This document shows, piece by piece, positions 2,392-25,005 of a stretch of 30,878 nt of DNA (the stretch's first letter is position 1; every line of letters starts with the position of its first letter). Origin of the DNA: a virus. The stretch spans positions 1 through 30,878 of the IMG/VR virus record IMGVR_UViG_3300041411_000274. One strand, 5' to 3'. The notes under the pieces were generated by a model. The model searched no databases and was not told the DNA's origin. It worked only from the letters and a program-made list of their open reading frames with translations. The position numbers and the translations under genes were made by a program.

Positions 2392-2856
2392 TTAATAAAT
2401 CCCATAATAAACACGAATCTTAGAATCATCCCAACCATACCCTGTAACAGAGATGGTTATCGTATCCCCTTCAATTTTACTGATCCAAATAAAATATTTA
2501 TTCCATCTGAAAGTGGCCCTACCCCTACTGTCAGTATATCCGTTATCATATTCACGAGTTGTCCATGTCTGATAACCACAGAAAGAATTTTCATTACTAA
2601 AAATAAAAGGAGTACCCCCTAAAAATTTAGGATCCTGAATTACATATTCGTCTGTCACCCTTTCCTTTCGATCAACATCGATATACCCCATAATTTTTCC
2701 TAGGGTATCAGTAACATCTAAAATCAGTTCAGCGTTTTCATTAAATACCTGTAAACCTTGCGCCACTTTTGCCTCCTTGGACTTGCGCTTCTTGCGAAGC
2801 ACAAGCCAACTTACCAATAGTATTCCTACTATAATTAAACCAATAATTAATCCCAT
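2392..2856 (-). CDS. Tail-tip accessory protein with optional N-terminal membrane anchor (dual start)
   Basis: The long reading has 154 residues: a membrane helix (about 3-20), a basic stop-transfer segment (KKRKSKEAK) and a soluble domain beginning VAQGLQVFNENAEL, typical of the start of small tail-tip proteins. Codon 31 is a GTG at 2766-2764, preceded with 5-nt spacing by a perfect AAGGAGG (2772-2778). The 124-residue short form is therefore probably the main product. The long-form ATG at 2856 lies inside the last codons of J and has only a weak AGGT-like site. Either the gene makes an anchored and a soluble form, or the anchor is a separate short peptide that has become in-frame. Function unknown. 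Confidence 0.75.
   Translation of the reverse strand: MGLIIGLIIVGILLVSWLVLRKKRKSKEAKVAQGLQVFNENAELILDVTDTLGKIMGYIDVDRKERVTDEYVIQDPKFLGGTPFIFSNENSFCGYQTWTTREYDNGYTDSRGRATFRWNKYFIWISKIEGDTITISVTGYGWDDSKIRVYYGIY
2772..2778 (-). promoter_or_regulatory. Strong internal ribosome site deciding the short start at 2766
   Basis: The minus strand reads AAGGAGG, then 5 nt, then GTG. It is the best Shine-Dalgarno match in this part of the operon and lies within the longer open frame. Confidence 0.75.
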
Positions 2857-5800
2857 AGACCTAACCTAACTCGCATAACGTTATTGTCGTCGTACACTTC
2901 TAATAAACTACCTGTAAGAACCATACGTGCACCATTAGGCTTTGTTGGATCCTTGTGTGTGGTTAAGGTTCCAAGCGTTGCGGTAATAGCGCTTAGACTT
3001 GATGCATTGATCTTGTCGGCATTGATGTAACCAATGGATGCATTGTCTAAATACAGACCAGCGGGAATAACTGTGCCATTTGGCAAAGTTGTCGGCGTTG
3101 ATTGATAAGTAAATGCATATTTCGGAGTTACTGTACCAGTGACAGTTGACGGTGCGCCGATTGCAAATCTGTTTGCCTGAACAATGAAATCAACTGTCTT
3201 GCTGTCATTCTCAATACCAACGCCACCGACCAAATTGCCTGATTGCAATTTCAAAGTTGCTCTTGCAGTTAAGCCATCAATCGATTGCTGCTGAGATTGA
3301 ATTGAGGCCGTATGTCCGCCTACAGTTGTTGTTAAGTTTGTAAGACTGGTAGCTTGTGTTGAAACCTTTCCGTCAATGGTCGTTACTTTGGCATCTAAAG
3401 AAGATAGAGCTGAAGCTTCTGCTTTGTTTGCAAGTCCGTCACTCAAAGTTTTGATGTCTTGCGACCATGTGCCCCAAGTGCTTGTGCTTGCACTGCGGCG
3501 TTCCGCTGTAAGCTTAGAGTCGGTACCACGTGCAATCTGAATGATTGGCCCACCGGTGGCATCACTGTAATAAACGTAAGTTTCTAATGAGACATAGGTT
3601 CCCATTCCAGTTAAGCCAAGCGTTGATGCTTGCTTAAACTCACGCACAATACGCTTAGGGTAATTTGTCCAGTACCAAGATGGAGGTTGGTTAGTAGAAC
3701 GAGTGTCGGTAACCTCAACATCTTTTAACAATCCGTTAACCGAACTATTTAATGACGTAATACTAGACCCTTGAGAGGTAATATTGCCTTCAGTTACTGT
3801 CACACGGTTAGCTAGGTTTGTTAAAGCCGTACTATCCGCTTTACTTGTTAATGTGCCATTAATACTAGTAATGCTGTTGTTCAGTTGAGTGATCGAGTTG
3901 CCTTGGCTAGTAATCGTTCCCTCAGCCGTGCTCACGCGGGTAGTAAGCGACGATAAGGCATTGGCTGTAACATCATTGGCAGCAATGGCATCAGCGTCCT
4001 CAATGATGAGGTAATCAAGCTCCGTCATGCCCGCTGCATTTGAATAGTTACCAAGGAATTGAACGCTTAAGAATGCAGTGGCATTTGGCATTTGACGAGG
4101 CGCTGCTAAAGTCCAACTTCCTGTCGCGGCACCGGCAGCTCGTCCTTTAACGTACACCGTAACTTCTTGCCAGACGTTGTTTGCAGGGCTTTGATTGATC
4201 ACAAAGTAATTTGAAGAACCAAAGTCAGTAGACACGGTGTTGCTTGAGTTAACATGTGAAGTGCCATCTGCCGCCAAGGTGCAAACTGCACAGTAGACTG
4301 TTCCTGTACCACTGAGACGGCGATAGCGAGCGCGGATGCGATAAGTCTTTGTTTGATCAAATGGCAGTTTTGCTTTTGATCTTGCATTTACGTGGTCGTT
4401 ACCCGCGTTGTTACCAAAACGATAGACTTTGCCACCAAGCGCAGAGGTGTCGTCGGCTCTTGCGACTTCGCCATTTTTGGTCCAGTAAATCCACTCTGAA
4501 TCAGGATCTACATCAAGTGATGCAGACATGGTGATGCCATTGGCTACGTTTTTAAGATTCGCTGTAAGGCTAGTGATTGAGGATGTATTTGCTGTGATCT
4601 TGCCTTCGGCTGTAGTTACACGGCTGTCAAGATCAGTAACGGCTGAAGTGCTCGCTTTGGTATTTAAAGCACCGTTAATGCTTGTGATACTGTTGTTTAG
4701 CGATGTAATAGAATTACTGTGAGAAGTAATCGTATTACCCTGTTGAGTCACAGTATTCGTCAAGTTCGAAATAGCTGAAGCATTGGCGGTAATCTCGGTA
4801 GAAACATCTAACAAAGATGGCTCTACAATCGCTGAAATGCCGCTTGATGCAAGATCGGCTTCTGCAACTAAACTTGCTGACCAACCATTAATCCAATCAT
4901 CTGGCGGAGTTGTATAGCCGATTTCCGCATCAATATTAAACTTAGGATACTGCCAGTAAGCGTTAGGCGCTTGAGAAGTTAAGATGACAACTACTGTGCC
5001 GTTACGAACGCCTAAACGTACACGGGTTGGTAGCGTACCTGAGTTCACCACCCCGTGTTGAATAATTGAAGTACCAGTGTAAGCATAACCTCCAATATTC
5101 AAATTAATATCGGTCTTGCCAGCCAAATAGTTATAACCAGTAAGCGCCAATCTAAACATCTTACTTGTGAAGGTAATAGGCGTTTGAATTACGATGTTAC
5201 CAACGACATTTGCCCCGTTTTGTTGGAAAACCAACACACCTCTAAATAACTTAGCTGCACCGGTACCACCTTGAATCTTAGGCAATGCAGCGTTTGCTGT
5301 ATTGGTAGTAACCGCTAGATTATTAGTCAAGGAAGTAATCGAGCTACCTTGAGAGCTAATATTGCCTTCCGCTGTAGTAACTCGATTTGACAATGAGGTC
5401 AGAGCGGATGCGTCTGCTTTCTGAGAAAGCGCGGTATTAATATTGGTAACACTGTTGTTAAGAGTGACAATGTTGTTAGATGCCGAAGTTACGCGTCCAT
5501 CAATGTTTGTAACTTTAGAATCAAGCGTGCTCAAAGCAGACGATGTTGCTTGTAAGTCACTAGCTAATTTTTTATTGCCTGTGATGTTGCGAAATTGAAT
5601 GTTCGTTACGTGCCATAGTTGAGCCGCTGCCTCTGCCGCCGCAATGCTTACCTGAATCCACGGACGAATTTCAACCATTCCATTTGGTACAGTGAAATAC
5701 CCCTCGACCATGCCCCACGCATTTTTATCAGTCGATTTAACGGCCACTGTGTACCAAGACCACGTTCCCGCACTATTCCTCACACTAAAACCAATTACAG

Positions 5801-8800
5801 CCGAAGCTGTCGCTGAAGTATTTGGCGTAGCGAGCCATGCTGAGGCATAGAACATATCGCCAGCATTACATTTAACAAATGGGCCATAATACGTATCGCG
5901 GCTGTTTAGTTTTAATGCTTTTGGAGAAGGTGGATTAGGTGCCGCATCAGTCGCATCAACAATTGCACCAGCCGTCCAGCCATTCTTTGGATCGACAAAG
6001 TCAGGATTGAGAATCAGGTTCGATAAATCATTATTAGCAAGCGTGTTATTCAAGCTAGTAATCGAATTACCTTGACTTGTAATGTTGCCTTCCGCCGCTG
6101 TCACTCGGTTAGAAAGAGTGTTTACAGCCGAAGCGTCCGCTTTATTGGTAAGCGTTCCGTTGATAGAAGTAACACTATTTTTCAAGCTAGTAATGTCAGT
6201 ACCTTGACTTGTAATAGTGCTACCTTGTTGATTAACAGTAGACGTTAAAGAAGTAAGAGCGGCAGAGGTCGCAAAACTTCCATCAGCATCATCAGTCGTC
6301 AATACTGGTGAAACTTTGTAGCCTTGAACTTCCCACCAGCCGGCTGAACCTGTGTGACCAGGAGCAATACCAAAGAACAATTGAGGATTGGCGTCAGATG
6401 TATAAGTTAGGTTTGCAGTACGCTCAATTTTTGTCCATGTTTCATTCTTAGGAACTTCGGTTACAGGAATGCCAATGCTTGAATAGCCCGCAGTGGTGAA
6501 CTTACCATCATTGCCAGAGCGACCAATCGGGATCATCAGTAAGCCGTTAGAGTCAGCGCTACAACGAACCCAAAAACTTACTTTGTAAGTTCTATCGTTC
6601 GGCAAAGGTGTTCTTGCATAGTTAAAACAGTTCACTGGAACAGTTGTATCTTTGCGGAATACCGTATTGCTAACTTTGCCTGTCGTTGTCGTTTTGAAGT
6701 ACTGCGCCATTGGATAGCCGTAATGACTGATCCACTTCTCTGGGTTGGCAAGGCTGTAATCAGGAATTAATGAATCACTATCAAGTGAATTGATAGAATT
6801 TGTGAGAGAAGTAATTGAGTTACTTTGGTTTGTTAATCCACCTTCTGCCGCAGTCATTCTTGTAGAAAGACCACTTAGAGCAGAGTTAGTTGCCGAAATA
6901 CTTCCTTCTGCTGTGCTCATACGTGAGCCAAGCGACGTGATTGAATTTGTTGCTGTCGCTAAACGACCGTCCACTTCGGTAACTTTTGTATCTAAAGTTG
7001 TTAAAGCAGTTGCATTCGCTTGGTTGCCAGCAATGGCTTCCGCATCTTCAAGAATTAAGTAATCAAGTTCAACAATGCCCGCTTGGTTTTGATAATTCGC
7101 AAGGAACATTGGCGTAATAAAACCAGTCATTTGCGAAACTGTACGAGGACTAGCTTGTGTGCCTGCACCAGCAGCAGCTCCCGCTGAGCGTCCTTTGAAA
7201 TAGGCAACAACTTCTTGCCATTCATCGATCGCAGGTGCATGTGCACTGATTACATAGTTCGACGAACCCATAGTATTGGATTGAGTATTGCCCGTTGCCA
7301 CATACCAAGCTTTATCAGGCGTCTTTTGTGAAATGCCAACGTAGATTGTGCCAGTACCAGCACGGCGACGGTAACGCGCCCGAATACGATATGTTTTTGT
7401 TTGATCGAACGGCATGAGGTTATTCGCATGCAGCCAGATAGTGTCATTGCCAGCATTGTTACCGAGCTGAATTACTTTGCCACTTTGTCCTGTTGCTTCG
7501 GCAATAACGTTAAATTCGCCTGTAGCAGCGTAGGTTGTCCAATCGGTAATTGGGCTTCCTGCATTCATGCTAATTGTAGATGTAGCACTTGTTAAAGCAG
7601 AGTTAAGCGATGTAATTGCGTTTGCATTAGAAGTTACTTTGCCATCTACGGTCGTAACTTTTGTATCTAGTAGTTGAAGCGCCGATGCATCCGCTTTAGT
7701 TAATAAAGCACCTTCTGTCGAAGTCATTCGACTTTCTAGGCTTGTTACACGTCCAGCAGTTGCAGTATTTTGATTGGTTGCGGTATTGAATAAATCTGTC
7801 GCTTTTGCTTGAGTGGAAATAATCATCCCACTTGCGTCGGTACCGGCAATCCAAGTTGAAGGCGTTGTATTGGTTCCAACTTGGCGTTCTAACATCATTC
7901 TTTCAATATTGATGACTTGACCAGCGGCTTTTGCAGTTGGGTTGCCAATCAAAAGCATACAGATGGCTGCCCCACCAGCAGGCACTGTAAACACACCACT
8001 AAAACGAGTTAATGAGGCAGTAATACTAAAGCGTTGGCGGGTGCTGTCTGCGTTATAGAGCTGCCATTCAATTGGGTGTGGTGGTGTGCCCCCAACCGTT
8101 TTAGCAACAAAGCTGAAAATGTACTTGCCTTCAGTTAACCATTGGCGAGGCGTTTGTCCACCACCAATATTGAAATACGTTCCGCTGCCGCTTGCCGCAG
8201 GCATGGTGAATTGGAAAGCACGAACATTTGCTGTGTCTGGAGATGTAACAACCTCAAAAGGTAGGCCAGAAACCCAATTTGTAGGTTTTTCAACTGGGTT
8301 TGCGATTTCAGGACCTAAGAGATTCACACCCTGATTTGGCAAGCCATTAAAGTTGCTTTGTAAAGCAGTTAATGCCGATGTGTTTGAAGTAACTTTTCCG
8401 TCAATAGTCGTTACTTTTGAGTCGAGTGACTGTACCGCACTAGATTCTGCTTTGTTGGCAAGAGAGCCATTGATACTAGTGATGTTGTTGTTTAGCGATG
8501 TAATAGAACTACTGTGAGAAGTAATCGTATTGCCCTGCTGTGTCACTGTGTTTGTCAGATTAGTGATTGCAGTGGCATTAGCAGTTACATCAGGCAAATA
8601 GTCGTAAGAGCTAGGAATCCATGCATCCGTTGTGATTACATCGCCTTTGACCAGAACTGCCCAGTAAACCGTACCTACACTGTTTTTGTCGGCAGTCGGA
8701 CGGTTGATCATGTAAAAGTTAAGAACTTTGGCCGTGCCTGAACTATTTTTAGTAAACGTAAATTTATTTACGACTTTACCGCCAGAGTTTACAAGTGACG

Positions 8801-11800
8801 CTAATGATTGAGAGCCACCGCCCGCATATACTGAGAGATATGAACTATTGTCGCCTGTTCCCCGAACATGTTCCGCACACCACAACAATGTGTACTTTGC
8901 GCCTAATTCCCAGTCTTCGCCCATCTCGTAGACGTGATGCGGGTAAGCAATTCCGTTATATGTTCCAACCACATTCGATTTAATAAGAAGGTTCGCGCCA
9001 CCTTTCCCACTTACCGCCAATGAGTTATTCAATGAAGTAATTGAATTGCCCTGACTTGTAATATTTCCTTCTGCCGTACTAACTCGACTGGTTAAACTAG
9101 TAAGCGCACTAGAATCAGCCTTATTTGCTAAGGTCCCATTAATTGCAGTAACGCTATTTTGAAGAGAAGTAATCGAATCACTTTGATTTGTGATCTTTCC
9201 TTCTGCTGTAGTCATACGTGTTGAAAGGCCACTTACAGCACCGTTTGTGCTTGTGATATTTCCTTCGGCGGTGCTCATTCGAGAATTTAATGAAGTAATC
9301 GAGTTTGTGGCTGTTGTTAACTTCCCATCAATGTTGTTGACTTGAGTTTGCGTTGACTGAATTGCAGTGGCATTAGCGTCTAGCAAAGCTTGCGTATCGC
9401 GTGGACTTGGACTCCAAGCTGTAGCTTTATTACCAGCCTCGATTTGGAGTTTACGAATTGTAGGAATTCGACCAGTGCTGTAAGTGCCATAGAACTCAAT
9501 TGCCGAAACGGTCGTACTGGCTGTATGTGTTTTTGGATTTACGGTAACTGAGTATTTGATAAACTGATTGGAAATGACCGCATTAACGCTGGTCGTAAAC
9601 GTGTGCGCAGATCCATTAGAAGAATAAACCTGAACCGCACCGACAACGGGCACACTCATTTCAAACGAAATAGTTACTGGCTTATCTAAGTTCTCATCGT
9701 AAAACGCTTTCAATTCCGCGCTGCGTTCAAAGAGCAAATACTCTTTATTAATTGCAGCAGTTGAAGTGCGCGGCCCTTCTGAGTCAGCTACAGCGTTTAC
9801 GCCACCGATAGTTAACTGAGAATTGAAAGTGTTAATGGCCCCAGATGTTGCTGAATCTGCTTCTGTTTTCGTGTAATAGTTGATTAATGCCGAAGCATCA
9901 GCTTTAGTTGAAAGCCCACCCTCTACAGTGGTAACTCGACCCTGTAAAGCGGTGACCGCATTTGTGTTAGTTGTTACATGGCCATCAATGCTAGTAACTT
10001 TGGTATCAAGCGAAGTAAGTGCAGATGCGTCAGCTTTTTTAGAGACGTTAGTGTTTGTGGTCGTTAGGTCATTACGCAAAGAGGTAATTGAATTACCTTG
10101 GCTTGTAATGGCACCTTCCGCATTGCTAACACGTGTAGTGAGGTTACTGACGGCTGTTGCGCTAGCATCTAACGATGCGTAGATGCCATTAAGATCGGCT
10201 GAACCTGCAACCCATGGTGATCCATCCTTATTGTCTCCTACGTACTCTTCGATCATTAACTTATCCATAGTTAAGATCGCACCCACAGGAGTCATTGCGG
10301 CAGATGAAGCGCCGCCTGTATATAACAGAAATGAAGCAGTTACTCCATCCGCATGGATTGGAGATGATAGGTATAAGTTGTATTTAATTAAGTCAGTCGT
10401 GAATGAAACGTTCTGCGTTTGGGTTGATGTCCATAACAAATTGACAACTTGGACGTTAGCACCACTTTGATTAAATACACGCAACGCAAAACGACCGATG
10501 TAGTCAGCTAGATCTGCTTTTGCGTAGAAACTAAATAGTAATTTAGCTCCACCACGTACCGCTACAGGCGCTTGCTTCCCATCGACATAGTTGCCGATGT
10601 AAACGTAGTTGCTGATATTGGCAGTTAAGTTTTTAAAGTTATAAGCCTTCCCAGTTCTTAACGTTGAGTCGATTAAGCTAACTTCAACGCCTGACTTAGT
10701 TGCTGTATATGGCACAACTTGAGGGTCAGAGAAAGGAGCAATAAGAAGGTTAGACCCTTTACCTGTACTAAGTTCTGACTTAAGCGAAGTAATCGCGCCC
10801 GCATTACTTGTAACTCTTCCATCAATACTAGTAACTTTTGAATCAAGGGTATTTAGAGCGCTCGAATCGGCTTTTGTTGTAAGAGCATTATTGGTTGCAA
10901 CTAAATCATTTTTAATCGAAACGATTGCCGAGCCTTGAGCTGTGATTTGTCCTTCAGCCGTGTTAACGCGGGTCGTTAAGGAATTTAATGCTGTAGCGTC
11001 TGCTTTTTCTGAAAGCGTACCGTTAATTGAGGTAACGCTATTATTCAATTGAGTAATTGAATTGCCTTGGGCTGTAATAACCCCTTCCGCTGTAGTCACG
11101 CGATTTGTTAATGCGCTTAAAGCGGTGGCATCGGCTTTTTGCGAGAAACTTCCATTAATTGAAGTGATGCTGTTATTCAATTGGGTAATTGAATTGCCTT
11201 GGGATGTATTTACACCTTCAGCGTTTGTAACGCGGGTAGTAATACTGCTAATGGCAGATGCATTGGCATCAAGAGCATTCTTAATGGCATTAAGATCGGC
11301 TGGTCCAGCCACCCAAGTTGAAGCAGGCTTTTCGGAACCAAGCGATTCTTCAAGCATCAACATATCAACCAAGTATTCGCCTGTCGTTGGGCCAGATGGG
11401 TTGCCCACAAGGTAAATCGTTGCACCAATGGCATTTGCTGGGGCGTTTACTGTTTTAAACGAATAGCGCTGACCGTTTGCGGTCGGAGAGATATACGATT
11501 CAGTTTGATCCTGTGGAAGTACAAGCCCGCCATTCGTGGTGATCGCACCAGTACTAGGGTTGCGGATAAACCACATAATATTGAAACGAAACGATGGAAT
11601 CGCAGTTGATAACGATTTTAACCATGCGCTAAACATATAGGCTCTGCCTGCCTCAATATGCATTGACATGAGAGCTGGAGCTTGTGCTGCTTGAGCAGTG
11701 CCGAAATACACATAATGCGCAGCGGCAGTGTATGAAACTTTGTACGCTTTTCCATTTCTACGTAATAGCGAATCAACCAAAGTTACCGTGCGTCCAGAAC

Positions 11801-14800
11801 CGCCCAAAACTGGCAATTCTTGAGGATCAGAAAAAGGCGCAATAATGTTGTTAATGCCCTTACCAGTACTTAGGTCTGATCTAAGCGCTGTAACTGCCGA
11901 AGCGGCAGCAGCGGCGTTGGTTACCGCAGTATTAGCTGTTTGTTGAGCTGTTGCAGCCGAGCTGATTGCTTCTGCTGCTTTGCCTTCGTTCGTCGTTAAT
12001 CGAGAATCAAGAGAAGTAATTTTTGAAGTGTTGACACTTGTGTTAGTGGCATTTGTCGTAATTTGCGTTTGCAAACTAGATAGCGTGCCATTAGTGCTTG
12101 ATTTATAAGTCTCAATATTACTTAGCAGCGCCGCATCTTCCGACTTACGTTGAGTCGTTTCAGTTGTGAGGCCATCTTTCATTTGAGAAATTGCAGTTGT
12201 ACGTGTGCTTGCTTCATCTGCAATTTTTTGATTTAACTGATTTGTAGAAGTAGTTAAATCGGAAGCCACTTTTGAGGCAGCCGTTGCTGCCTCATTAGCC
12301 GCTGTTTGAGCATTGGTTGCGGTTGTCTGAGCATTTGTTGCCGCAGTGTTAGCGGTAGCTGCTGCTGAAGTTGCACTTTCAGCCATCGTTTTAGCAGTAT
12401 CTGCCGCTGTTTTGGCATTTGCTGCTGCATTGCTAGCCGTTAATGCTGTGCTTGATGCTTGATCGGCTGTATTTTTTGCATTAGCTGCTGTGGCGCTTGC
12501 TTCATTGGCAACTTGTTGAGCATTAGTTGCCTGTGTTTGCGCTGAACTTGCCGCCGTTTGGGCGTTTGTAGCTGCTGTCTTGGCATCTGTCGCTGCCGTT
12601 TGGGCATTTGAAGCCGCAGTTTGAGCGCTACTTGTCGCAGTTTGTGCATTAGTAGCTGCTTGCTCTGCTGCTTCTGCTACATTAACCGTATTTTCGATTT
12701 TCCCTTGAAGCTCTTGAGCAAGATCGCTTTCGGCAATATGTCCAGAGATAAGATCCAATACAGCATCCGGGTCAGCAATAGTCGTTCCATTAACCCATTC
12801 AGACCATGCCCCCACATTACCAATTTTATCTACAATTCGACCACTATAATATTGGATTAAATTTGGCTGTAAGCCTTGAACTTTATGAGTATTAGTTGGA
12901 TAAGCGAACTGACCTAACGGTGCTATATTGCTTACACCATCTGGTGAAACACGAATTTCAACATATGCTGCGTCTTGAGCCCCTACATTGGGAAAACTCC
13001 AATCCAACTGCATACCAAACAAAATACCAGTGGCACGGATATATTCAAGTTTAGGAGGTAAACCCTTTTTACCTACTAATTCAGTAATTGATGAGTAAAC
13101 CGGTAATGAAGAAACTTCAAATGCTGAAATTGCAGTAACACGTGCTTGATAATTTCCCGAATAAACTCCCTGTACTTCTAAAGAGTTATTTCCTGTGAGC
13201 GGTAAACGAAGCCAAGAACCATTGTCTTTACGCCATTCAACAAGATATTTAACAGCACCTTTTGCCTGCTTCCAAGACAAAATCATTGTTGTGATATTAA
13301 TACCTTGATTAACTTTATTTTCACTTGTAATTAAAATATCACTTACGGGATCTTGAATAGTTGGATTAATAACTGAAATTGGTACTTCTTCAAAATAGGC
13401 CCCACTATCTATTTCATCAAATTTCTTAGAGTTGTATTGAATGGCATTAATCGTAAATTTGTTTTTCTCTTCCTGACGAATTGAAATAACCCTAAATTTC
13501 ATTGTTGCTAAATCTTGAGCATCGATTACCCAAATATTTTCCGCAGCGATTGAACCTAAATCGAATGGTAAAGTGACTGTAATTACACGACCATTTATAG
13601 ATTGAATAATTCTAGTTTGAGCTTTTCCGTTTTCACCATTAACAACCAAACGATCGCCTGGCTTAGCTACAACGTCATCGCGATCAATTGTTAGATTAAC
13701 TCTATCTTCAGAAATTGCAGATACACGTCCGCCATTAGCACGTCCTGCAAACAATTCATCTGCAATTTCAATAACTCGACCAGGTTGTGGAATCCATCCA
13801 TCTAGACCAACTTTAAAAGTTACAGTTCTTGTTTCAGACTGTTCAGACTTTAAAGCCCACAAACCAGCACGTTGTGCTTGTCCACGTGAAGTACACCCCC
13901 ACGCATTTAAATCTAAAATGCGTACTTGACCAGAGTCTGAAATTGCCTGCTCATCTCGAACATATTCATATTCAGTTTTATAATGATTAGCTGGGTTATC
14001 AAATGCAACTTTTACAACATTATGACGATCACGAGCGCGCGTACCTGAATACTCAAATTCTCCAATCACATTCGCGCGGGTATACGTAAAATATGTATCT
14101 TGTGGAATATCTGCATCACAGATAATACTGTTTCCGTCCCAATAAGAGATTGCTCTAAAAATTCCAGCTAATTTTTTTAAGATTTCATAAGCTTCCTCTG
14201 CTCTTTGCAAGTAAACGTTACAAGTAAAACGTGGTTCCTGCCCTCCTTGGCCATCAGCTACAGATTCATCACAATATTGCCCAAGACGATATAAAGACCA
14301 TTTGTCGATCATAAATGGTGTAAGACGATCACCTAAACCATACCGATCTGAAGTACAAATATCGTAATAAACCCAAGCTGGGTTATTTGAATATGCACTA
14401 ATAAATGTACCATCCCACATTCCAGCATATGTTCTAGAAACCGGATTATAGTTGGAAGGGAGTTTAATTTTTGTACCCTTACATTCAACAGCAATTTTAG
14501 CAACATTGTTAAAGGTCTCTGCATCATATTGCAGACCTAATAGTGCTGTATTCGGATAGCGTAATTTTGCATCAATAACTTCAGTGACAGCCTCAATATA
14601 CATTTTGTCACTGACATACTCAGAGGTTGAGTTTGGTGTAATACGGCGCACACGAATAAGCCAATCTGAATCAGCTTTTGGTAAGTTAATTCGATGAGCA
14701 CGCTCATAATTTGCGGAAGTTTTATCAGAGATTTTTGTTTTTAAAACTTCAGTCCAAGGCCCACCATCAGTTTGTAATTCCACTGTGTACTCAATGGTTA

Positions 14801-15218
14801 CACCTGAAACATCTCCACTCGTAGCATCTTGAGTTCGTAAAGGCCCCCATTTAAGTCGAATACGTAAAGCATCTAAATCTAAATTTTTAAAGGACTTAAC
14901 CCATGGAGTACCCGCTTTTAATTCGACATCAATTGCAGTTTCGCTCTCAACAGCTGGAAAACCTTCTATATAGTCTTGGTCATTTGTTCCTGAACGAAAA
15001 TCAACTTTTACACTTTCAAAATTTAATTTGCCATTGTTATCTTCAAGAGGAGTATTTTCAAGCAAGATAGACTTATTACCGCTTGCTAATCCTTCAATCT
15101 CCCCCTCTGCAAGGCCATATAGAATATTTATGCGAGTTTTTGACTGTGCAGAATCAGTAGCGATATTTGGTTGTCGCGCTTGTCCGCTTCCTTTTTTTGA
15201 ACCTTTTACAATTGACAT
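2847..15218 (-). CDS. J: Giant lambda J-type central tail fibre / host-specificity protein
   Basis: A 4123-residue tip attachment protein, far longer than lambda J (about 1130). The N-terminal 600 residues are the conserved J hub, beginning MSIVKGSKKG with RINILYGLAEGEIEGL. Two fibronectin-III-like domains follow (about 625-810), then an Ala-rich coiled coil (about 840-980). From about 1110 to 3930, roughly eleven globular modules alternate with coiled-coil linkers built on SITSLNNS, TAEGNITSQG and KADASAL. The C-terminus (about 3970-4123) matches the DUF1983 J-terminal domain, ending VMRVRLGLWD. The chosen ATG has GTGAGA upstream; a GTG four codons earlier is less likely. The repetitive part is visibly less AT-rich than its surroundings. 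As the distal fibre it should set target recognition. No frameshift is seen. Confidence 0.95.
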   Translation of the reverse strand: MSIVKGSKKGSGQARQPNIATDSAQSKTRINILYGLAEGEIEGLASGNKSILLENTPLEDNNGKLNFESVKVDFRSGTNDQDYIEGFPAVESETAIDVELKAGTPWVKSFKNLDLDALRIRLKWGPLRTQDATSGDVSGVTIEYTVELQTDGGPWTEVLKTKISDKTSANYERAHRINLPKADSDWLIRVRRITPNSTSEYVSDKMYIEAVTEVIDAKLRYPNTALLGLQYDAETFNNVAKIAVECKGTKIKLPSNYNPVSRTYAGMWDGTFISAYSNNPAWVYYDICTSDRYGLGDRLTPFMIDKWSLYRLGQYCDESVADGQGGQEPRFTCNVYLQRAEEAYEILKKLAGIFRAISYWDGNSIICDADIPQDTYFTYTRANVIGEFEYSGTRARDRHNVVKVAFDNPANHYKTEYEYVRDEQAISDSGQVRILDLNAWGCTSRGQAQRAGLWALKSEQSETRTVTFKVGLDGWIPQPGRVIEIADELFAGRANGGRVSAISEDRVNLTIDRDDVVAKPGDRLVVNGENGKAQTRIIQSINGRVITVTLPFDLGSIAAENIWVIDAQDLATMKFRVISIRQEEKNKFTINAIQYNSKKFDEIDSGAYFEEVPISVINPTIQDPVSDILITSENKVNQGINITTMILSWKQAKGAVKYLVEWRKDNGSWLRLPLTGNNSLEVQGVYSGNYQARVTAISAFEVSSLPVYSSITELVGKKGLPPKLEYIRATGILFGMQLDWSFPNVGAQDAAYVEIRVSPDGVSNIAPLGQFAYPTNTHKVQGLQPNLIQYYSGRIVDKIGNVGAWSEWVNGTTIADPDAVLDLISGHIAESDLAQELQGKIENTVNVAEAAEQAATNAQTATSSAQTAASNAQTAATDAKTAATNAQTAASSAQTQATNAQQVANEASATAANAKNTADQASSTALTASNAAANAKTAADTAKTMAESATSAAATANTAATNAQTTATNAQTAANEAATAASKVASDLTTSTNQLNQKIADEASTRTTAISQMKDGLTTETTQRKSEDAALLSNIETYKSSTNGTLSSLQTQITTNATNTSVNTSKITSLDSRLTTNEGKAAEAISSAATAQQTANTAVTNAAAAASAVTALRSDLSTGKGINNIIAPFSDPQELPVLGGSGRTVTLVDSLLRRNGKAYKVSYTAAAHYVYFGTAQAAQAPALMSMHIEAGRAYMFSAWLKSLSTAIPSFRFNIMWFIRNPSTGAITTNGGLVLPQDQTESYISPTANGQRYSFKTVNAPANAIGATIYLVGNPSGPTTGEYLVDMLMLEESLGSEKPASTWVAGPADLNAIKNALDANASAISSITTRVTNAEGVNTSQGNSITQLNNSITSINGSFSQKADATALSALTNRVTTAEGVITAQGNSITQLNNSVTSINGTLSEKADATALNSLTTRVNTAEGQITAQGSAIVSIKNDLVATNNALTTKADSSALNTLDSKVTSIDGRVTSNAGAITSLKSELSTGKGSNLLIAPFSDPQVVPYTATKSGVEVSLIDSTLRTGKAYNFKNLTANISNYVYIGNYVDGKQAPVAVRGGAKLLFSFYAKADLADYIGRFALRVFNQSGANVQVVNLLWTSTQTQNVSFTTDLIKYNLYLSSPIHADGVTASFLLYTGGASSAAMTPVGAILTMDKLMIEEYVGDNKDGSPWVAGSADLNGIYASLDASATAVSNLTTRVSNAEGAITSQGNSITSLRNDLTTTNTNVSKKADASALTSLDTKVTSIDGHVTTNTNAVTALQGRVTTVEGGLSTKADASALINYYTKTEADSATSGAINTFNSQLTIGGVNAVADSEGPRTSTAAINKEYLLFERSAELKAFYDENLDKPVTISFEMSVPVVGAVQVYSSNGSAHTFTTSVNAVISNQFIKYSVTVNPKTHTASTTVSAIEFYGTYSTGRIPTIRKLQIEAGNKATAWSPSPRDTQALLDANATAIQSTQTQVNNIDGKLTTATNSITSLNSRMSTAEGNITSTNGAVSGLSTRMTTAEGKITNQSDSITSLQNSVTAINGTLANKADSSALTSLTSRVSTAEGNITSQGNSITSLNNSLAVSGKGGANLLIKSNVVGTYNGIAYPHHVYEMGEDWELGAKYTLLWCAEHVRGTGDNSSYLSVYAGGGSQSLASLVNSGGKVVNKFTFTKNSSGTAKVLNFYMINRPTADKNSVGTVYWAVLVKGDVITTDAWIPSSYDYLPDVTANATAITNLTNTVTQQGNTITSHSSSITSLNNNITSINGSLANKAESSAVQSLDSKVTTIDGKVTSNTSALTALQSNFNGLPNQGVNLLGPEIANPVEKPTNWVSGLPFEVVTSPDTANVRAFQFTMPAASGSGTYFNIGGGQTPRQWLTEGKYIFSFVAKTVGGTPPHPIEWQLYNADSTRQRFSITASLTRFSGVFTVPAGGAAICMLLIGNPTAKAAGQVINIERMMLERQVGTNTTPSTWIAGTDASGMIISTQAKATDLFNTATNQNTATAGRVTSLESRMTSTEGALLTKADASALQLLDTKVTTVDGKVTSNANAITSLNSALTSATSTISMNAGSPITDWTTYAATGEFNVIAEATGQSGKVIQLGNNAGNDTIWLHANNLMPFDQTKTYRIRARYRRRAGTGTIYVGISQKTPDKAWYVATGNTQSNTMGSSNYVISAHAPAIDEWQEVVAYFKGRSAGAAAGAGTQASPRTVSQMTGFITPMFLANYQNQAGIVELDYLILEDAEAIAGNQANATALTTLDTKVTEVDGRLATATNSITSLGSRMSTAEGSISATNSALSGLSTRMTAAEGGLTNQSNSITSLTNSINSLDSDSLIPDYSLANPEKWISHYGYPMAQYFKTTTTGKVSNTVFRKDTTVPVNCFNYARTPLPNDRTYKVSFWVRCSADSNGLLMIPIGRSGNDGKFTTAGYSSIGIPVTEVPKNETWTKIERTANLTYTSDANPQLFFGIAPGHTGSAGWWEVQGYKVSPVLTTDDADGSFATSAALTSLTSTVNQQGSTITSQGTDITSLKNSVTSINGTLTNKADASAVNTLSNRVTAAEGNITSQGNSITSLNNTLANNDLSNLILNPDFVDPKNGWTAGAIVDATDAAPNPPSPKALKLNSRDTYYGPFVKCNAGDMFYASAWLATPNTSATASAVIGFSVRNSAGTWSWYTVAVKSTDKNAWGMVEGYFTVPNGMVEIRPWIQVSIAAAEAAAQLWHVTNIQFRNITGNKKLASDLQATSSALSTLDSKVTNIDGRVTSASNNIVTLNNSVTNINTALSQKADASALTSLSNRVTTAEGNISSQGSSITSLTNNLAVTTNTANAALPKIQGGTGAAKLFRGVLVFQQNGANVVGNIVIQTPITFTSKMFRLALTGYNYLAGKTDINLNIGGYAYTGTSIIQHGVVNSGTLPTRVRLGVRNGTVVVILTSQAPNAYWQYPKFNIDAEIGYTTPPDDWINGWSASLVAEADLASSGISAIVEPSLLDVSTEITANASAISNLTNTVTQQGNTITSHSNSITSLNNSITSINGALNTKASTSAVTDLDSRVTTAEGKITANTSSITSLTANLKNVANGITMSASLDVDPDSEWIYWTKNGEVARADDTSALGGKVYRFGNNAGNDHVNARSKAKLPFDQTKTYRIRARYRRLSGTGTVYCAVCTLAADGTSHVNSSNTVSTDFGSSNYFVINQSPANNVWQEVTVYVKGRAAGAATGSWTLAAPRQMPNATAFLSVQFLGNYSNAAGMTELDYLIIEDADAIAANDVTANALSSLTTRVSTAEGTITSQGNSITQLNNSITSINGTLTSKADSTALTNLANRVTVTEGNITSQGSSITSLNSSVNGLLKDVEVTDTRSTNQPPSWYWTNYPKRIVREFKQASTLGLTGMGTYVSLETYVYYSDATGGPIIQIARGTDSKLTAERRSASTSTWGTWSQDIKTLSDGLANKAEASALSSLDAKVTTIDGKVSTQATSLTNLTTTVGGHTASIQSQQQSIDGLTARATLKLQSGNLVGGVGIENDSKTVDFIVQANRFAIGAPSTVTGTVTPKYAFTYQSTPTTLPNGTVIPAGLYLDNASIGYINADKINASSLSAITATLGTLTTHKDPTKPNGARMVLTGSLLEVYDDNNVMRVRLGLWD
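3440..11875 (-). repeat. Array of about eleven globular modules and coiled-coil linkers inside J
   Basis: Module boundaries estimated by eye, in protein order: 11285-11875, 10185-10780, 9385-9815, 8585-9020, 7825-8345, 7030-7590, 6280-6790, 5575-6035, 4805-5290, 3980-4555 and 3440-3735. Several look like jelly-roll or carbohydrate-binding folds. Modules 1, 2 and 5 end alike (LMLEE or MMLER, then STWVAG or SPWVAG). Modules 6 and 10 share PFDQTKTYRIRARYRR and are clear paralogues. The linkers repeat a K-A-[DE]-x-[ST]-A-[LV] motif about 13 times, typical of trimeric phage-fibre coiled coils. Confidence 0.8.
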
Positions 15219-15278: not shown

Positions 15279-15929
15279 TTAAAGTTGGTCTTCAGGGTAC
15301 TGACCTGCACTGATAATAAATCCACCAATTTCACGCTGACCATAAAGGACAGGTACAGGATTTCCTTGAGCTACTGTTGTTACTGCACTACCAAATCCTT
15401 TATTTGCTCTATTGCCATCTTGGTTTTGGTCTTGAGTAGTTGATGCCGAGGGCATTAACATACTTGAAATACCACCTACAGCCATACCGGCACCAGCACC
15501 AATTAAAGCGACACCCGTATTTGTAGTTGCACCACCGTTCCAAAAACCTGCAACAATCAGAACTACTCCAAGAACTAACTGCAAGACTCCAGTATTTCCA
15601 CCAGCACCTACCACACGAGGCACAATATGAATGGTGTCGGCTTGGGTATTCATATCTAACTGATCTTCAGAGATATTATCTCCTGTAATCTGCTGTTTCG
15701 AATCTGCATCATAAATTGAGGAATGATTCTTTTTATATTTAGAATTTTTATTATTTAAAAATACGGCAAATTTAAGTCCAGACTCATGAGCACGTAACAT
15801 AAAACTTTCAAAACCCGGAACTTGAACTGATAATGCACGCATAGCTTCACGAGTATTCACAACATCTAATTGAAATTGCTTTCCAAATTTTTCTGCTAAT
15901 ACACCATATAGTTTGATTGTTTTTAACAT
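15279..15929 (-). CDS. I: Lambda I-type tail tip assembly protein
   Basis: A 216-residue tail assembly protein. Residues 1-100 resemble the ubiquitin-like N-terminal half of the lambda gpI family (MLKTIKLYGVLAEKFGKQF). They are followed by a glycine-rich hydrophobic stretch (about 108-160) that includes GVALIGAGAGMAVGG, and by the conserved C-terminal segment VPVLYGQREIGG. Lambda gpI works with J and K during tip assembly. The start has AGGA upstream. It lies between the 62-residue gene and J, as expected for lambda-like tail order. It looks intact. Confidence 0.88.
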   Translation of the reverse strand: MLKTIKLYGVLAEKFGKQFQLDVVNTREAMRALSVQVPGFESFMLRAHESGLKFAVFLNNKNSKYKKNHSSIYDADSKQQITGDNISEDQLDMNTQADTIHIVPRVVGAGGNTGVLQLVLGVVLIVAGFWNGGATTNTGVALIGAGAGMAVGGISSMLMPSASTTQDQNQDGNRANKGFGSAVTTVAQGNPVPVLYGQREIGGFIISAGQYPEDQL

Positions 15930-16247: not shown

Positions 16248-16997
16248 TTAATTCATTTTTTTGTGTCTTAAAATCTTCACGGTTCGATCTAACCATTGTG
16301 GTCCATAAATCTCTCTTACAGACTTACGCCCATAAGGATGATGAAGAATTAAAGATGAACCAATACATGGTTCTGTCTGCTCTGTTTTAAGTTTTCCTTG
16401 GTCACCAAGCCAGATTAATGCATGATTAGGATGTTCTGTGCGTCCTACTCTACAAATAAGCATGTCACCATATTTAGGTTGTGAGACTTCATAAAAACCA
16501 GCTTGTTCATAATTTTCCAAATAAAGTGAAGGATGATCTTTTTGTTCCCACCAAGCATCTTCTCGATCAAAATCAATTAATGAAATATTAAGTTCACGGC
16601 TATAGAAATCACGGATTAATGAATAACAATCTTGCCACCCATGATAATAATTACGTCCTACCAGAGGTGCTTTATAACCAGATGGTTCATATATTTGAAA
16701 ATCAATATTTGGATATGAACAAATCACCCAAGGTTTTTTATGTAACTCAATTTGTGTTAAGTCTAATTCGGAAGCACGTGTAGTTCCATCTGGATGACTA
16801 TGAACATACGCCTGAATTTCCCCCTGATCTTCAATCATAGTTAAATCTTCAGGATGGATTTCAAATTGATCATTTTGAGTAGAAATATTACGGCAAGGAA
16901 TATATTGGCGATCTACAATCACACCACAGCATTCAAGTGGGTAACATTCATCGGCATGTACCATAATTGCTTTTTTAATTTTTGCTGAAAGTTTCAT
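16248..16997 (-). CDS. K: Lambda K-type tail protein: JAMM (MPN+) plus NlpC/P60 peptidase
   Basis: A 249-residue two-domain protein. The N-terminal half is a JAMM/Mov34-type metalloprotease with Glu22 and the full H-x-H-x7-S-x2-D zinc motif (His66, His68, Ser76, Asp79). The C-terminal half is NlpC/P60-like, with Cys124 in GWQDC and His192 in PNHALIW as the likely catalytic pair. Lambda gpK has the same arrangement and is needed for tip assembly, possibly with peptidoglycan processing. The gene starts 12 bp after L, with CAGG upstream. All key residues are present, so it looks functional. Confidence 0.93.
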   Translation of the reverse strand: MKLSAKIKKAIMVHADECYPLECCGVIVDRQYIPCRNISTQNDQFEIHPEDLTMIEDQGEIQAYVHSHPDGTTRASELDLTQIELHKKPWVICSYPNIDFQIYEPSGYKAPLVGRNYYHGWQDCYSLIRDFYSRELNISLIDFDREDAWWEQKDHPSLYLENYEQAGFYEVSQPKYGDMLICRVGRTEHPNHALIWLGDQGKLKTEQTEPCIGSSLILHHPYGRKSVREIYGPQWLDRTVKILRHKKMN

Positions 16998-17009: not shown

Positions 17010-17729
17010 TTACGACAAGTTTGAAGCTGGAAAACCACCATAAGATAAAGGCTGGTTTTCACCAAAATGTAAGCGACAATCTCGTAAACGACCTCCACAC
17101 TTATCTTGGGCTGGGTCATCAGTAAGCTCACCTTTTTCTGTATACATTGCCGTCCCTGTATAACCACACTCCTCACCACGATAACGTCCTTTACATGCCC
17201 ATTCGCACAGTGAAGTAATTTGCCTAACAGGAATTTCTCTTCCTTCATTATCTATAGGATTAGAAAGTTCAAATGTGACTTGCTGAGCATTTTCAGAAGT
17301 TTTCTGTTCTATGTACCAAATCTGTTCTTTTGATTCATTTGCTGCATTTGTATTACCAGAAGAAAAGTTTGATGCATCTAAATATTTAGCCATTGTGGTA
17401 ATGACTTTTAATTTAGCATCAGCAAAATCTTTGAATTGTAAACAGTAAGCCGAAACAGCTCCTTGAATACCATTAATATTATTTGCAATTGCTAAGGATG
17501 GAGTAGAGGCTTTTCCATCTGAACGCAATTCTAATTCAGATACTTTAATTGCTAATGGTTCATAAGTTTCACCTTGCCAAATAATATTTGGTTGCCATTC
17601 ACCATTATCTTTAAAACTAGCATGGCCATGAAATCGTAAAATACCTGCTCCAAGATTCCTTGCATCTAATTCATAAAGAGTAATTAGTCCATCTACTTCA
17701 AGTTTTTGAAAATCACTGACGAGAGACAT
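17010..17729 (-). CDS. L: Lambda L-type minor tail protein with four-cysteine Fe-S site
   Basis: A 239-residue tail-tip protein starting MSLVSDFQKLEVDG. The C-terminal domain has Cys179, Cys188, Cys211 and Cys218, with spacings of 9, 23 and 7. To my knowledge these are the spacings of the [4Fe-4S] ligands of lambda gpL, within the family pattern ECGYTG and CGGRLRDC. Cys175 is additional. An ATG four codons upstream (17741) is possible, but GGA spacing favours 17729. A much longer frame would run into M and is rejected. It lies between M and K as in lambda. Confidence 0.92.
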   Translation of the reverse strand: MSLVSDFQKLEVDGLITLYELDARNLGAGILRFHGHASFKDNGEWQPNIIWQGETYEPLAIKVSELELRSDGKASTPSLAIANNINGIQGAVSAYCLQFKDFADAKLKVITTMAKYLDASNFSSGNTNAANESKEQIWYIEQKTSENAQQVTFELSNPIDNEGREIPVRQITSLCEWACKGRYRGEECGYTGTAMYTEKGELTDDPAQDKCGGRLRDCRLHFGENQPLSYGGFPASNLS

Positions 17730-17741
17730 ATTTTTTTCCAT

Positions 17742-17765
17742 AAAAAAAGCCCCTTTTAAGGGGCT
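17742..17765 (-). terminator. Terminator-like hairpin between M and L
   Basis: AGCCCC and GGGGCT arms around a 6-nt loop, then seven T, ending 13 nt before the L start. Confidence 0.75.
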
Positions 17766-17781
17766 CATAAGTGAACAAGTA

Positions 17782-18123
17782 TTAAGGATAATAAACTTGG
17801 GTAAATGTTGTACTAATGCGCCACCACCCCCCACCTAAATGGACAGATTGATATTCACCCACTTTTACCCGCACTTCACCCTCTAAAGGTGAATCCCAAA
17901 GAAATGATTTTGAACCTTTATGTAAGTCAAAAAAATTTTTAATCTCTAAAATATTTTTTTCGGTATCAGTTTTAGTATATTGCCACTGACTAGAACAATT
18001 ATTAATACCAACACTTACGTTTTGTTCGTAACCATCCCCAAAATTTGCATTTAAGACATTAAATGTATTTTTTTGGGAATTACCATCTAAATCTTGATTC
18101 CAAGTAAACTTAAGGGCACTCAT
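17782..18123 (-). CDS. M: Lambda M-type minor tail protein
   Basis: A 113-residue protein with the gpM-family motif FGDGYEQ near residue 28 and the C-terminal TFTQVYYP. The family forms the ring between the tail tube and the tip. AGGA stands before the start codon. It lies between H and L in the expected order, but 390 bp after H, which is an unusually wide gap for this operon. It looks intact. Confidence 0.9.
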   Translation of the reverse strand: MSALKFTWNQDLDGNSQKNTFNVLNANFGDGYEQNVSVGINNCSSQWQYTKTDTEKNILEIKNFFDLHKGSKSFLWDSPLEGEVRVKVGEYQSVHLGGGWWRISTTFTQVYYP

Positions 18124-18514: not shown

Positions 18515-21500
18515 TTAACCACGTATCGCATTATATAAAATCCGACCTTGACGTAATTCTTGAAGTAATACTTGTCGAATTGTATTCCCAAGCACTTCTC
18601 CAACTAATTTATATTGCCCAGATGAGTCGACCTGACTACTACCATCTGAATTTACTGTCACATTTACTGACACAGGAGCATTAATAGCACTTCCTGTTGA
18701 CGGAAGTTCAGCAAGCTGAGGCACAATAATCTGACTTGACTCTGTTTGAGGCAACTCACCTGTTTGGTTCATATAATTAAGATTATCCAAGCCAATCTTT
18801 TTAGCTGAAGATTGTTTAATCATGAACTCTTCATTAGAAGCCCAGATAGGAATACTGTCACTTAAACCATTTCCTAAACCTCTAATTTGTCCACCAGTTG
18901 CAAAGCCTTGTGGAGTAACAGCGGACACTGCTGCTTTTAATACACCTGTTTGGGCCACAGCCATTGCCACTGCGGGTATGTTATAAGGGAAAGCTGCTGA
19001 TGCCCATGCTTTACCAATTGCTTCAGAACTAGATAAAATTACACTTGCTAATGAAAAACCTTTTTGCATGGCAAACAGCGTTCTATATGTATTAGATTGC
19101 TCACCTCCAAAAGCTTTGGCTAGCCCAGCCATATCTCCAAACATGGTTGCATAATTATTTAAATTTTCTACATTTAAATTATTTTGTAACTCTCGAGACT
19201 TTGTATCATATTCAACATCCATTGCGAATTTTGCATCGACATATGCTTGATGTGCATCTTCAAGCATTTGATATTTATCAGTCTCTGATAAGTTTTCATT
19301 ACTATTAATTGATTCATTTATATTTTGGTATCCATCCCACAAATTAGTCTGTTTAGTTTCAAATTCATTTTGAAAATTCCAATTTTTTAACTCATCTGGA
19401 GTAAGAGTTGTTCTCGCCCAAGTTTCAGTACTAGATTGATTCATTTGATCAATTCTATCTTTAGTACTTTGAATCGCCTGATTTTGAATCTTTATTTTTT
19501 CATCTTCTGCAGCAATATAACTCTCCATTGCTTTGTCATATTCCTTCTGACGAAGATCTAATAATCTTGTTCGTTCAGGACCTTCTGGAATAGTTTTAAT
19601 AATCTCAGCCTTGTCATCTTCACTATCTGCTAAGATTCTCTCTGGCTCAGTATAATATTTGCTTTTTAAAGCTTTTTCATTCGCAGCTTGAGTAAGGGAT
19701 GCTTGATACTGCTCATCATCAGAATTTTGTACATTTTTTAAAGCCTCCAATGCAAAACTTTCATCTCCATTTTTCCCAAGCAATAAGTTAAGTTTATTGT
19801 AATAATTATCTCGTTTCTTATGATGAGGTTGGGCGTTGATCTTATTACCATCATAATCCCAAACAATAAAATTATGCCCTAAAGTGTTGGCTAGTTCTTT
19901 ATAATCAGCATTTTTCATTAATGCCTTTTTAGATTTAGCAAATCGCTTATTTCCCAATAGCTCATTGATAGCATATTTTGCCTGAGTATTTAGAGCTTCT
20001 TGTGTTTGTTTAATATTGCCTGAGGTATCAAGGAGTCCTTTTTTCGATAAAAGACTCATTAGATCTGTCGCTCTATCCTTTTGCCAAGAAAAAATTCCTA
20101 CGTTAGTCAAACCATTATTGTGATCTTTATGGCTGCCAAACATTTTTGAACTACGGAAATCATTTTCCCTTCCAACTTCCGCAGTAAAATATTTAGCCTG
20201 TTTCTCATTCAGCACACCTGTGTTCATAAAGGCTTGATAAACGCTCAGCATGTTTTTAGTTGCAGGATCCATAACAGCACTAGCCATAGCTTGCTTTTTT
20301 GCTAACTCTGCTTGTTTTTTGGCTTCTTCAGTTGATCTTTGTTCTAGTTTTAATTTATCTTCTTGCTGGCTTTTTAATTCTTTATTTAAATTTAATAAGT
20401 CCAAAGAGGCTTTGAAATCTTTTTGGGCTGTTGGGGTTGCCATCTGCGCAGAGTCATAATTATATCGTTTCCCCCACTCATAGATTATATCCATTTCTTT
20501 TGAAGAATAGTTCTTACCATACTTATCTAAAAGTGCTTGCCGACCTTTAACATCCTTGTATTCAGTATTAAAAGTTTTTTGATATTGTTCATAACCGACT
20601 TTAGCTCTATTTGAAGCTAGTTCAGCAGCATAAAACTCTTTATTTAAATTCCCTTGTTTCTTTGTTGCTTCATCGGTTGACTTTAATAAAGAGTTGATTA
20701 CTTCTTTTTGTTTTGTAAATTCTTGACCGACTTTAATTGAAGCTGCTGCTTGTTCATCAATTCTTGCTTTAGATTTTTCAGATACGCCAGATAATTTATT
20801 AATTTCAGAAGCAAATTGACTAGTGGTCAGCTGCCCTTCTTTAAACTTCATAGCTAATTCACTAGCAGTTCGAGATGCTTCAGAAGTAGAACCATCCAGG
20901 CGTCCTATAGCAATTGCCATACTAATTAACGTGCCTTTAGATTTGTCATACTCTTCATTTAATTCTTCTAATGATTTTTTTTCAGCACGCATCTGAGTTC
21001 TTTGCGAGGCTGTATCTAATTCTTGATATTTTTTAATTATTTCAGCAATTGAAACTCCCTGTTCATTTAAAGATTTAGCAGCTTCATCATTACTATTTTT
21101 CATAAAGAGAAAAGCTGCACCGGCAGCAAGAGCTTGTACCGCAAGAAGACCTAAACCAACAGGTCCCCCAAGAAATGCCATAGCTCCTCTTAACACACCC
21201 ATTGCAGTTGTAGTCTGTAATGAAGCTGCTGTGACACTTGCAAAAGTTGCAACAGTACGTACACCTTCAATTGCCCACATAGCAAACTCTTTGGCTACCA
21301 TTGCAGCTTGTACTGCGAGTTTAACGCTTAGTGCAGCGCCCAAACCAACTGCTGCTGCAGTAATGGTGTCCATATGAGAAGTTACAGCGATAAATACAGG
21401 CATGATTCCATTGACCATAGTGGCTTGAAGACCCTGCCATTTCAAATCCATTATTTGTAAGTTTTCTTTGGCTTGCGATAATTTTTTTATCATCGCATCA

Positions 21501-22214: not shown

Positions 22215-22269
22215 GTTACTGCTTTGCTAAATTGGGCATACTTTACAAATACTAGAGTTAATCAAGGCA

Positions 22270-23888: not shown

Positions 23889-24356
23889 TTAAACGGTTTT
23901 CAATGTATCGAAAGCTGGGGTTTGGCGCTTCATTGGAATAGTATGGTTTACCAATGAATCTTTATCGAAAATTGGTGGGCCTTTTCGTAATTGGGCTTGA
24001 AATTGTGTCCAAGAACGACCTTGTGGCACTGTAACAACATCGCCCTGTAAAGTAGGTGCAACCGTACCATCCGCCCATCCCACGAAAACATCAACTTTTG
24101 CTTTGTTTTGTGCCAAATTCAAAATCGTAACATGGGTTTCATTTTCAGGATCAGTATTGATTTTCAAACTACCTTCACCTGGTTTAACCAAACCATATTC
24201 TGAAGTTGAAGATTCACGTTCTTCCATACATGTTGTTTCAATTTCAGTAACACTATCATCGCCTACCGACAATTCAGTAATACATTCAATTTTAGTTAAT
24301 ACAGCTGGTGAACCATGTTTCACCCATGTTTCAGTACCTTGTGTTAATACGCCCAT
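23889..24356 (-). CDS. V: Major tail tube protein (lambda V position)
   Basis: A 155-residue protein forming the stacked rings of a flexible non-contractile tail. The sequence (MGVLTQGTETWVKHGS... ELSVGDDSVTEIETTCMEE) fits the phage tail tube families that pair with G/GT chaperones. It is the first recognisable tail gene. Upstream of it there are no tail-terminator (U), connector, capsid, portal or terminase genes. It starts 25 nt after a strong hairpin. The family call rests on sequence character plus position. Confidence 0.88.
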   Translation of the reverse strand: MGVLTQGTETWVKHGSPAVLTKIECITELSVGDDSVTEIETTCMEERESSTSEYGLVKPGEGSLKINTDPENETHVTILNLAQNKAKVDVFVGWADGTVAPTLQGDVVTVPQGRSWTQFQAQLRKGPPIFDKDSLVNHTIPMKRQTPAFDTLKTV

Positions 24357-24664: not shown

Positions 24665-24733
24665 AAAATCACCTAAACAAGTAAAAATCACTACATTATC
24701 TATTGATAAAAAATAAAATCATTAAAAAACACG

Positions 24734-24961: not shown

Positions 24962-24972
24962 ATTTTTTCCCA

Positions 24973-25005
24973 ATAAAAAAAGAGCTAGACTTTAAATCTA
25001 GCTCT
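24973..25005 (-). terminator. Terminator-like hairpin
   Basis: AGAGCTAGA pairs with TCTAGCTCT around a 7-nt loop, followed by seven T on the minus strand, 12 nt before the next start. Confidence 0.78.

Follow-up and report, generated by a model that had tools for sequence, protein, structure and literature searches.

The 30,878-nucleotide stretch of viral DNA analysed here (IMG/VR record IMGVR_UViG_3300041411_000274, positions 1 to 30,878; in the following called the window) encodes on its minus strand a giant protein of the lambda J type. We consider it probable that this J is the central tail-tip fibre of a headless lambda-like particle, most likely an F-type tailocin of Acinetobacter, and that it carries exchangeable modules of a glycan-binding type.

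The giant J protein and its domain order

The J reading frame extends from a GTG at 15230 to 2847 (4127 amino acids), with an ATG at 15218 from which 4123 amino acids are encoded. An earlier reading of this DNA from sequence only had given precisely the coordinates and length of the ATG-start frame, and its estimate of over three times the length of lambda J agrees with a ratio of 3.6 (lambda J has 1132 amino acids, PMC11101478). By homology, the protein is the tip attachment protein J of the lambda type, because it matches Pfam FNIII-A_GpJ (7e-43) and Phage-tail_3 (5e-23), PHROG 31 ('central tail fiber J') and the solved chains of the F2-pyocin fibre (25vf, E 5e-247, the best PDB match) and of lambda J (8iyk, E 3e-131), and because its gene follows L, K and I in a tail operon with the order tube, chaperone, tape measure protein (TMP), M, L, K, I, J.

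Segmentation by composition divided the protein beyond its core and shaft into exactly eleven non-linker modules (M1 to M11, within J residues 1119-3934) and a C-terminal domain. In lambda J the order of domains is hub, FNIII, helical shaft, straight fibre and receptor-binding domain (RBD; PMC11101478), and therefore the modules of the window J are inserted between shaft and straight fibre. The parts of the protein, all on the minus strand, are:

2847-15218: complete gene of the J-type central tail-tip fibre
12723-15218: conserved core of hub and FNIII domains, residues 1-836 (Pfam FNIII-A_GpJ, Phage-tail_3; PDB 8iyk, 25vf)
11877-12722: Ala-rich helical shaft at the position of the lambda AHS, residues 837-1118 (composition segmentation, periodicity)
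11295-11867: M1, residues 1122-1312, paralogue of M2 and M5 (segmentation; family profile to CBM4)
10194-10766: M2, residues 1489-1679, paralogue of M1 and M5 (sequence comparison; CBM4 profile)
9387-9833: M3, residues 1800-1948, without clear PDB match
8592-9005: M4, residues 2076-2213, exchanged for a module of another family in the nearest relatives (modelled beta sandwich, CBM-like)
7821-8357: M5, residues 2292-2470, CBM-like jelly roll (Z about 10-11 to CBM22, CBM29 and CBM4)
7032-7583: M6, residues 2550-2733, paralogue of M10 (sequence comparison)
6285-6794: M7, residues 2813-2982, CBM-like jelly roll (sub-threshold Pfam match, modelled fold)
5565-6035: M8, residues 3066-3222, CBM-like jelly roll (model; Z about 11-12 to CBM22 and CBM16)
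4806-5291: M9, residues 3314-3475 (segmentation; model without resolved fold)
3975-4547: M10, residues 3562-3752, paralogue of M6 (sequence comparison; weak model)
3441-3731: M11, residues 3834-3930 (segmentation; model without resolved fold)
2850-3278: C-terminal domain, like the J central straight fibre (9ze4_N, sub-threshold Phage_Tail_Tip)

The match to PDB 9ze4_N ('J central straight fiber') overlaps the start of the C-terminal domain, which also reaches Pfam Phage_Tail_Tip below threshold (E 0.0026) and, when fragments are counted, occurs in 68 of the searched J sequences. By its Pfam and PDB matches the C-terminus is straight-fibre-like, and a lambda-type Ig-like RBD was not recognised there.

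Modules resembling carbohydrate-binding modules

The sequence-only reading had described eleven distinct beta-rich modules. The number holds, the distinctness does so only in part: M1 is 37% identical to M2 and 25% to M5, and M6 is 47% identical to M10, so that there are about eight module families and not eleven. Profile comparison gave no support for M3 or M6 as further relatives of M1 and M5. Concerning their beta-rich nature, AlphaFold2 models of M4 and M7 are beta sandwiches of good confidence (predicted local distance difference test, pLDDT, about 80-94 and 73-93, respectively), those of M5 and M8 are beta sandwiches of moderate confidence (M8: pLDDT about 50-80), the model of M10 is weak and those of M9 and M11 gave no resolved fold. 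The models of M4, M5, M7 and M8 have the jelly-roll beta sandwich of the CBM_4_9 type (CBM, carbohydrate-binding module), and structure comparison places them near CBM22, CBM4, CBM16 and CBM29 structures (VIA Z about 10-12); M7 reaches Z 10.7-12.8 to MAM, gingipain adhesin and CBM domains. Thus the well-modelled modules are predicted to be folded, not disordered, and they resemble domains that bind carbohydrates, as the sequence-only reading had supposed.

At sequence level, the profile of the M1/M2/M5 family reaches the CBM4 structure 1gui (E 0.0098). M7 matches Pfam CBM_4_9 at E 9e-5 with 23.3 bits, below the gathering score of 25.9, and we therefore call the modules CBM-like and do not file them as members of CBM_4_9. 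Searches of the PDB with the sequences of M6, M7, M8, M9 and M11 gave no match, and M3 gave nothing clear, its matches being weak ones to flagellar hook.

Module turnover between related J proteins

Modules are exchanged between related J proteins. Among 66 complete Js of 1415-4197 amino acids there are 30 distinct module strings, and between relatives modules are gained, lost, reordered and replaced, with changes in order and copy number. Module turnover was among the checks suggested from the window alone, and scaffolds that are near-identical bear different strings. Four relatives (L010, L011, L012 and L040) share about 96-97% DNA identity with the window in the J core, whereas identity in the modules is patchy and mostly 73-92%. 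In all four, M4 is swapped for another family; L012 has one extra module of the M6 type, and L040 lacks one. The DNA alignment to these relatives breaks at J residues of about 2060 and 2216 on both sides of M4, i.e. at most about 16 residues from the module edges. L013 and L014 match the middle of J over a long stretch in M4 only, and in headed relatives (AM106 and the like, e.g. L018) M9, M8 and M4 occur in a different order.

At four-fold sites the core differs by 0.02-0.16 from the four closest relatives, the modules mostly by 0.3-0.6 (in single pairs down to 0.20-0.23 for M7 or M8), while the amino-acid identity of matched modules is mostly 80-97%. This combination of high synonymous divergence and retained amino-acid identity indicates that each module has a history of its own and that constraint acts on them. 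The GC content at third codon positions is 0.35-0.43 in the modules vs 0.21 in the core. Recombination inside one J via linker DNA found no support: the exact matches that linkers share are in most cases 10-17 bp long and never exceed 23, compared to a maximum of 17 after codon shuffling. Exchange between phages at the linkers is the simpler route.

Linkers and fibre length

Every linker shows a hydrophobic periodicity of 3.4-3.7 residues that is significant against shuffles, and in the PDB sequence search the linkers match coiled coils of the P22-type tail needle gp26, in line with the coiled-coil linkers proposed earlier. As evidence of ancestry, such matches between low-complexity sequences are weak. 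The linkers sum up to about 1,340 residues, which could span up to about 200 nm if all were continuous coiled coil; the lambda fibre, by comparison, is 29.7 nm long between its FNIIIs and the distal end of the RBD (PMC11101478). The suggestion of a very long fibre is hence plausible as far as length is concerned.

A module pool shared by Acinetobacter phages

In a set of 50,697 phage records, the J core matched 1568 records from some 60 genera. Unlike the core, the modules are nearly confined to phages of Acinetobacter, from which all matching records came for M4 (26/26), M7 (16/16), M6 (36/36) and M1 (10/10), and most for M11 (18/19) and M3 (23/28). Unrelated myo-, podo- and jumbo phages of Acinetobacter carry the modules, too, in giant virion proteins. 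This applies to gp22 of the myophage ABMM1 (3451 amino acids), to phiAbaA1 and TAC1 (Saclayvirus), to a 2133-amino-acid protein of the N4-like phage Presley and to gp104 of the jumbo phage ME3 (5419 amino acids; L264:4759-21018), which has at least 12 matches to modules of the window J. In Saclayvirus the module-bearing gene (L262:5902-10956; L267:4255-14034) lies directly after the major capsid gene. 'Galactose-binding-like' domains have already been noted in ME3 and TAC1 (PMC11058221); we found no earlier report of modules shared between J and these phages.

Alternatively it might be that the modules are mainly spacers that extend the fibre, the receptor being bound by the tip alone. Long coiled-coil linkers, the binding of lambda J via its C-terminal domain (PMC11101478) and the existence of module-less Js of 1475 amino acids with the same core would fit such a role. 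Neutral spacers, however, would need neither the one-by-one exchange of modules whose amino-acid sequences stay much alike although synonymous sites have diverged strongly, nor their reuse on other virion proteins of Acinetobacter phages, and the modelled modules are CBM-like. We therefore regard a mere spacer function as unlikely.

A headless tail cluster

Besides J, the window comprises the following genes:

57-133, plus: tRNA-Arg (CCG), end of the element
442-1565, minus: lysis genes, i.e. GH108 endolysin (442-987), spanin-like gene (1043-1348) and holin (1254-1565); holin and endolysin by Pfam/PHROG
15279-15929, minus: tail assembly protein I (PHROG scan)
16248-16997, minus: tail protein K with JAB and NlpC/P60 domains (Pfam and PHROG scan)
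17010-17834, minus: minor tail protein L (PHROG scan)
17782-18123, minus: minor tail protein M (PHROG scan)
18515-22144, minus: tape measure protein, 1209 amino acids (PHROG scan)
23359-23826, minus: tail assembly chaperone (PHROG scan)
23889-24356, minus: tail tube protein, 155 amino acids (PHROG scan; PDB match to the F2-pyocin tube)
25556-26116, minus: conserved protein of PHROG 5656 (PHROG scan)
27020-28692, minus: two early replication-type genes, DnaC-like and DnaD-like loaders (PHROG scan)
29010-29252, minus: Cro-like regulator (PHROG scan)
29314-30042, plus: CI/LexA-type repressor (PHROG scan)

The element is headless. PHROG scans of the open reading frames (ORFs) in the approximately 31-kb element revealed no terminase, portal, capsid or connector gene, and the terminase, portal, protease, capsid, neck and terminator proteins of headed relatives had no match in the lineage of the window. 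As a positive control, most of these queries matched each other among the headed relatives. The largest uncovered gap in the element is at most 441 bp. A search with phrog_2 (terminase) found no terminase either; this result is weak by itself, and phrog_2 was rejected as the sole test for head genes after it missed the HK97-type terminases of two genomes (G172 and G086). Both have a similar tube and were considered as further headless clusters; both possess head genes. G013 and G031, whose tube is similar as well, are candidates for such clusters.

The same layout is present in six relatives (G001-G006), and since these are separate contigs an assembly artefact can be dismissed. The element lies between host genes at a tRNA-Arg site: one relative contig of 35.8 kb has host genes on both flanks, and in four other species the flanking genes are adjacent, representing the empty site. 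No integrase was found in the window, G001, G002, G003 or G006. After the headless cluster, G004 (L278-L279) has an integrase and, farther on, a second tail cluster with a different J core. A headed prophage occupies the same site beside the same host gene in G158 (L369-L371).

This last arrangement, together with the absence of head genes and integrase and the weakly constrained small ORFs at the deletion site (24491-24973), would also fit a decaying or cryptic prophage which has lost its head region and integrase and whose tail genes persist by inertia and recombination. Against this stand the intact tail and regulatory ORFs and the signs of strong purifying selection on them. In seven copies, the tube differs by 0.000-0.010 at first and second codon positions vs 0.03-0.21 at four-fold sites, the ratio of these differences is low in CI, DnaC, K and TMP, too, and the whole 12-kb J frame is kept open in the closest relatives. 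Decay is consequently an improbable explanation. Still far less probable is a phage satellite with a tail of its own that takes its heads from a helper phage. Its replication-type genes are kept and conserved and its head genes are absent, as a satellite might have it, but neither a terminase small subunit or connector nor a tail terminator or neck gene for head docking was recognised, and the flanked copies lack an integrase.

Some further genes of the cluster are mentioned here as observations. Two small ORFs under little constraint lie where the head genes are missing; the one at 24491-24691 has a weak match to neck or tail-completion proteins (E 0.044) and is possibly a remnant. Residues 630-760 of the tape measure protein show a sub-threshold match to Phage_lysozyme2 (E 0.0024). 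Between the chaperone and tape measure genes, a 286-amino-acid ORF with a hydrophobic N-terminus lies on the opposite strand (22224-23084, plus); it is present in 6/6 relatives with 91-95% identity over the matched part, has no PHROG or NCBIfam match and is a possible moron or immunity gene. The two genes just after J (1661-2856; 154 and 242 amino acids) vary among the relatives, with 79-84% identity in G004, about 50% in G002 and G003 and no counterpart in the stretches examined of G001, G005 and G006. Perhaps they change together with the fibre.

Interpretation as a probable F-type tailocin

The only PDB sequence match of the tail tube is the F2-pyocin tube (25vd/25vf). This match and that of the J core, together with the precedent of rhizoviticin from Allorhizobium vitis, an F-type tailocin without a head in which a LexA-type repressor and replication genes are retained (PMC10811719), make it most likely, in our view, that the element is an F-type tailocin and J the fibre of this tailocin, not of an infectious phage. 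At the level of genes, several features of F-type tailocins are found here: genes of a non-contractile tail without those for head and packaging, a chromosomal site without an integrase of its own (window, G001-G003 and G006) and a predicted SOS-type CI/LexA-like repressor with a lysis cassette of holin and endolysin.

Several observations weigh against this reading. J cores 65-78% identical to that of the window occur in headed phages, e.g. AM106, and therefore the giant fibre is not specific for tailocins. DnaC/DnaD-like genes are unusual in tailocins, rhizoviticin being an exception. G004 and G005 carry an integrase beside the lysis genes, perhaps that of a neighbouring prophage, and no close copy of the cluster was present in a sample of 175 Acinetobacter genomes. 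As to the modules, none passes a Pfam CBM cut-off, M3, M9 and M11 are without fold assignment, and the top fold matches of M7 include jelly rolls other than CBMs. Its best matches are meprin MAM and a gingipain adhesin; hence, the fold alone is no proof of sugar binding.

We infer the following mode of action for the proposed tailocin. J would assemble as a trimer, by homology to lambda J, with hub and FNIII domains closing the tail tip, followed by the helical shaft, the eleven modules on their coiled-coil linkers and the straight-fibre-like end domain. DNA damage would inactivate the LexA-type repressor, upon which tails would be made and freed by the lysis genes. The modules may then bind surface glycans of related cells cooperatively until the tip reaches a final receptor and opens, and the tube would permeabilise the envelope. 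The combination of modules in the string would determine the target range. The broader proposal has in our judgement an even chance of being right: Acinetobacter F-type tailocins owe their target range to a giant fibre built from CBM-like cassettes, drawn from a pool that is common to sipho-, myo-, podo- and jumbo phages on different virion proteins and tied to the host genus, not the phage lineage.

Comparison with known systems

Our search of the openly accessible literature (subscription papers were outside it) did not bring up an F-type tailocin from Acinetobacter. If our reading is true, this would be the first one as far as that search shows, with a fibre far larger and more modular than that of F2-pyocin. 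Near-identical scaffolds with different module strings would represent a natural experiment on the pairing of modules with surface sugars, and module sharing across unrelated phages, if true, would provide a sequence key to the surface glycans that phages and tailocins recognise.

The window J shares with lambda J the homologous core, the gene order M-L-K-I-J and the order of hub, FNIII, helical shaft and straight fibre. In contrast to lambda J, its shaft and straight fibre are separated by eleven additional modules and a surplus of about 1,000 linker residues, and the Ig-like RBD of lambda was not recognised. F2-pyocin likewise lacks head genes and gives the closest structural matches for J core and tube; its fibre has 1204 amino acids, whereas the window J is 3.4 times longer and modular, and the window cluster keeps replication-type genes. 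In this respect it resembles rhizoviticin (PMC10811719), also a headless prophage region with LexA-type repressor, replication, tail and lysis genes, which however has another host and other genes, an integrase remnant and demonstrated killing, which for the window cluster is a prediction. The Acinetobacter temperate siphophage AM106 has a central fibre (orf49, 3489 amino acids) with a 78% identical core and nine shared modules or domains in changed order, but a full head module and an integrase. CBM4-like jelly rolls (1GUI, 1GU3) also decorate tail-tip proteins of Gram-positive siphophages (BppA, evolved Dit/Tal; PMC7291167), where host binding has been shown in some cases; there one to few CBMs are found, compared to eleven modules on the J shaft of a Gram-negative system. 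Finally, the carotovoricin fibres of Pectobacterium (PMC13195805) likewise belong to a tailocin that is conserved at a single chromosomal site and whose fibre loci recombine, but there the exchange is of whole fibre loci, whereas the window J exchanges single internal modules.

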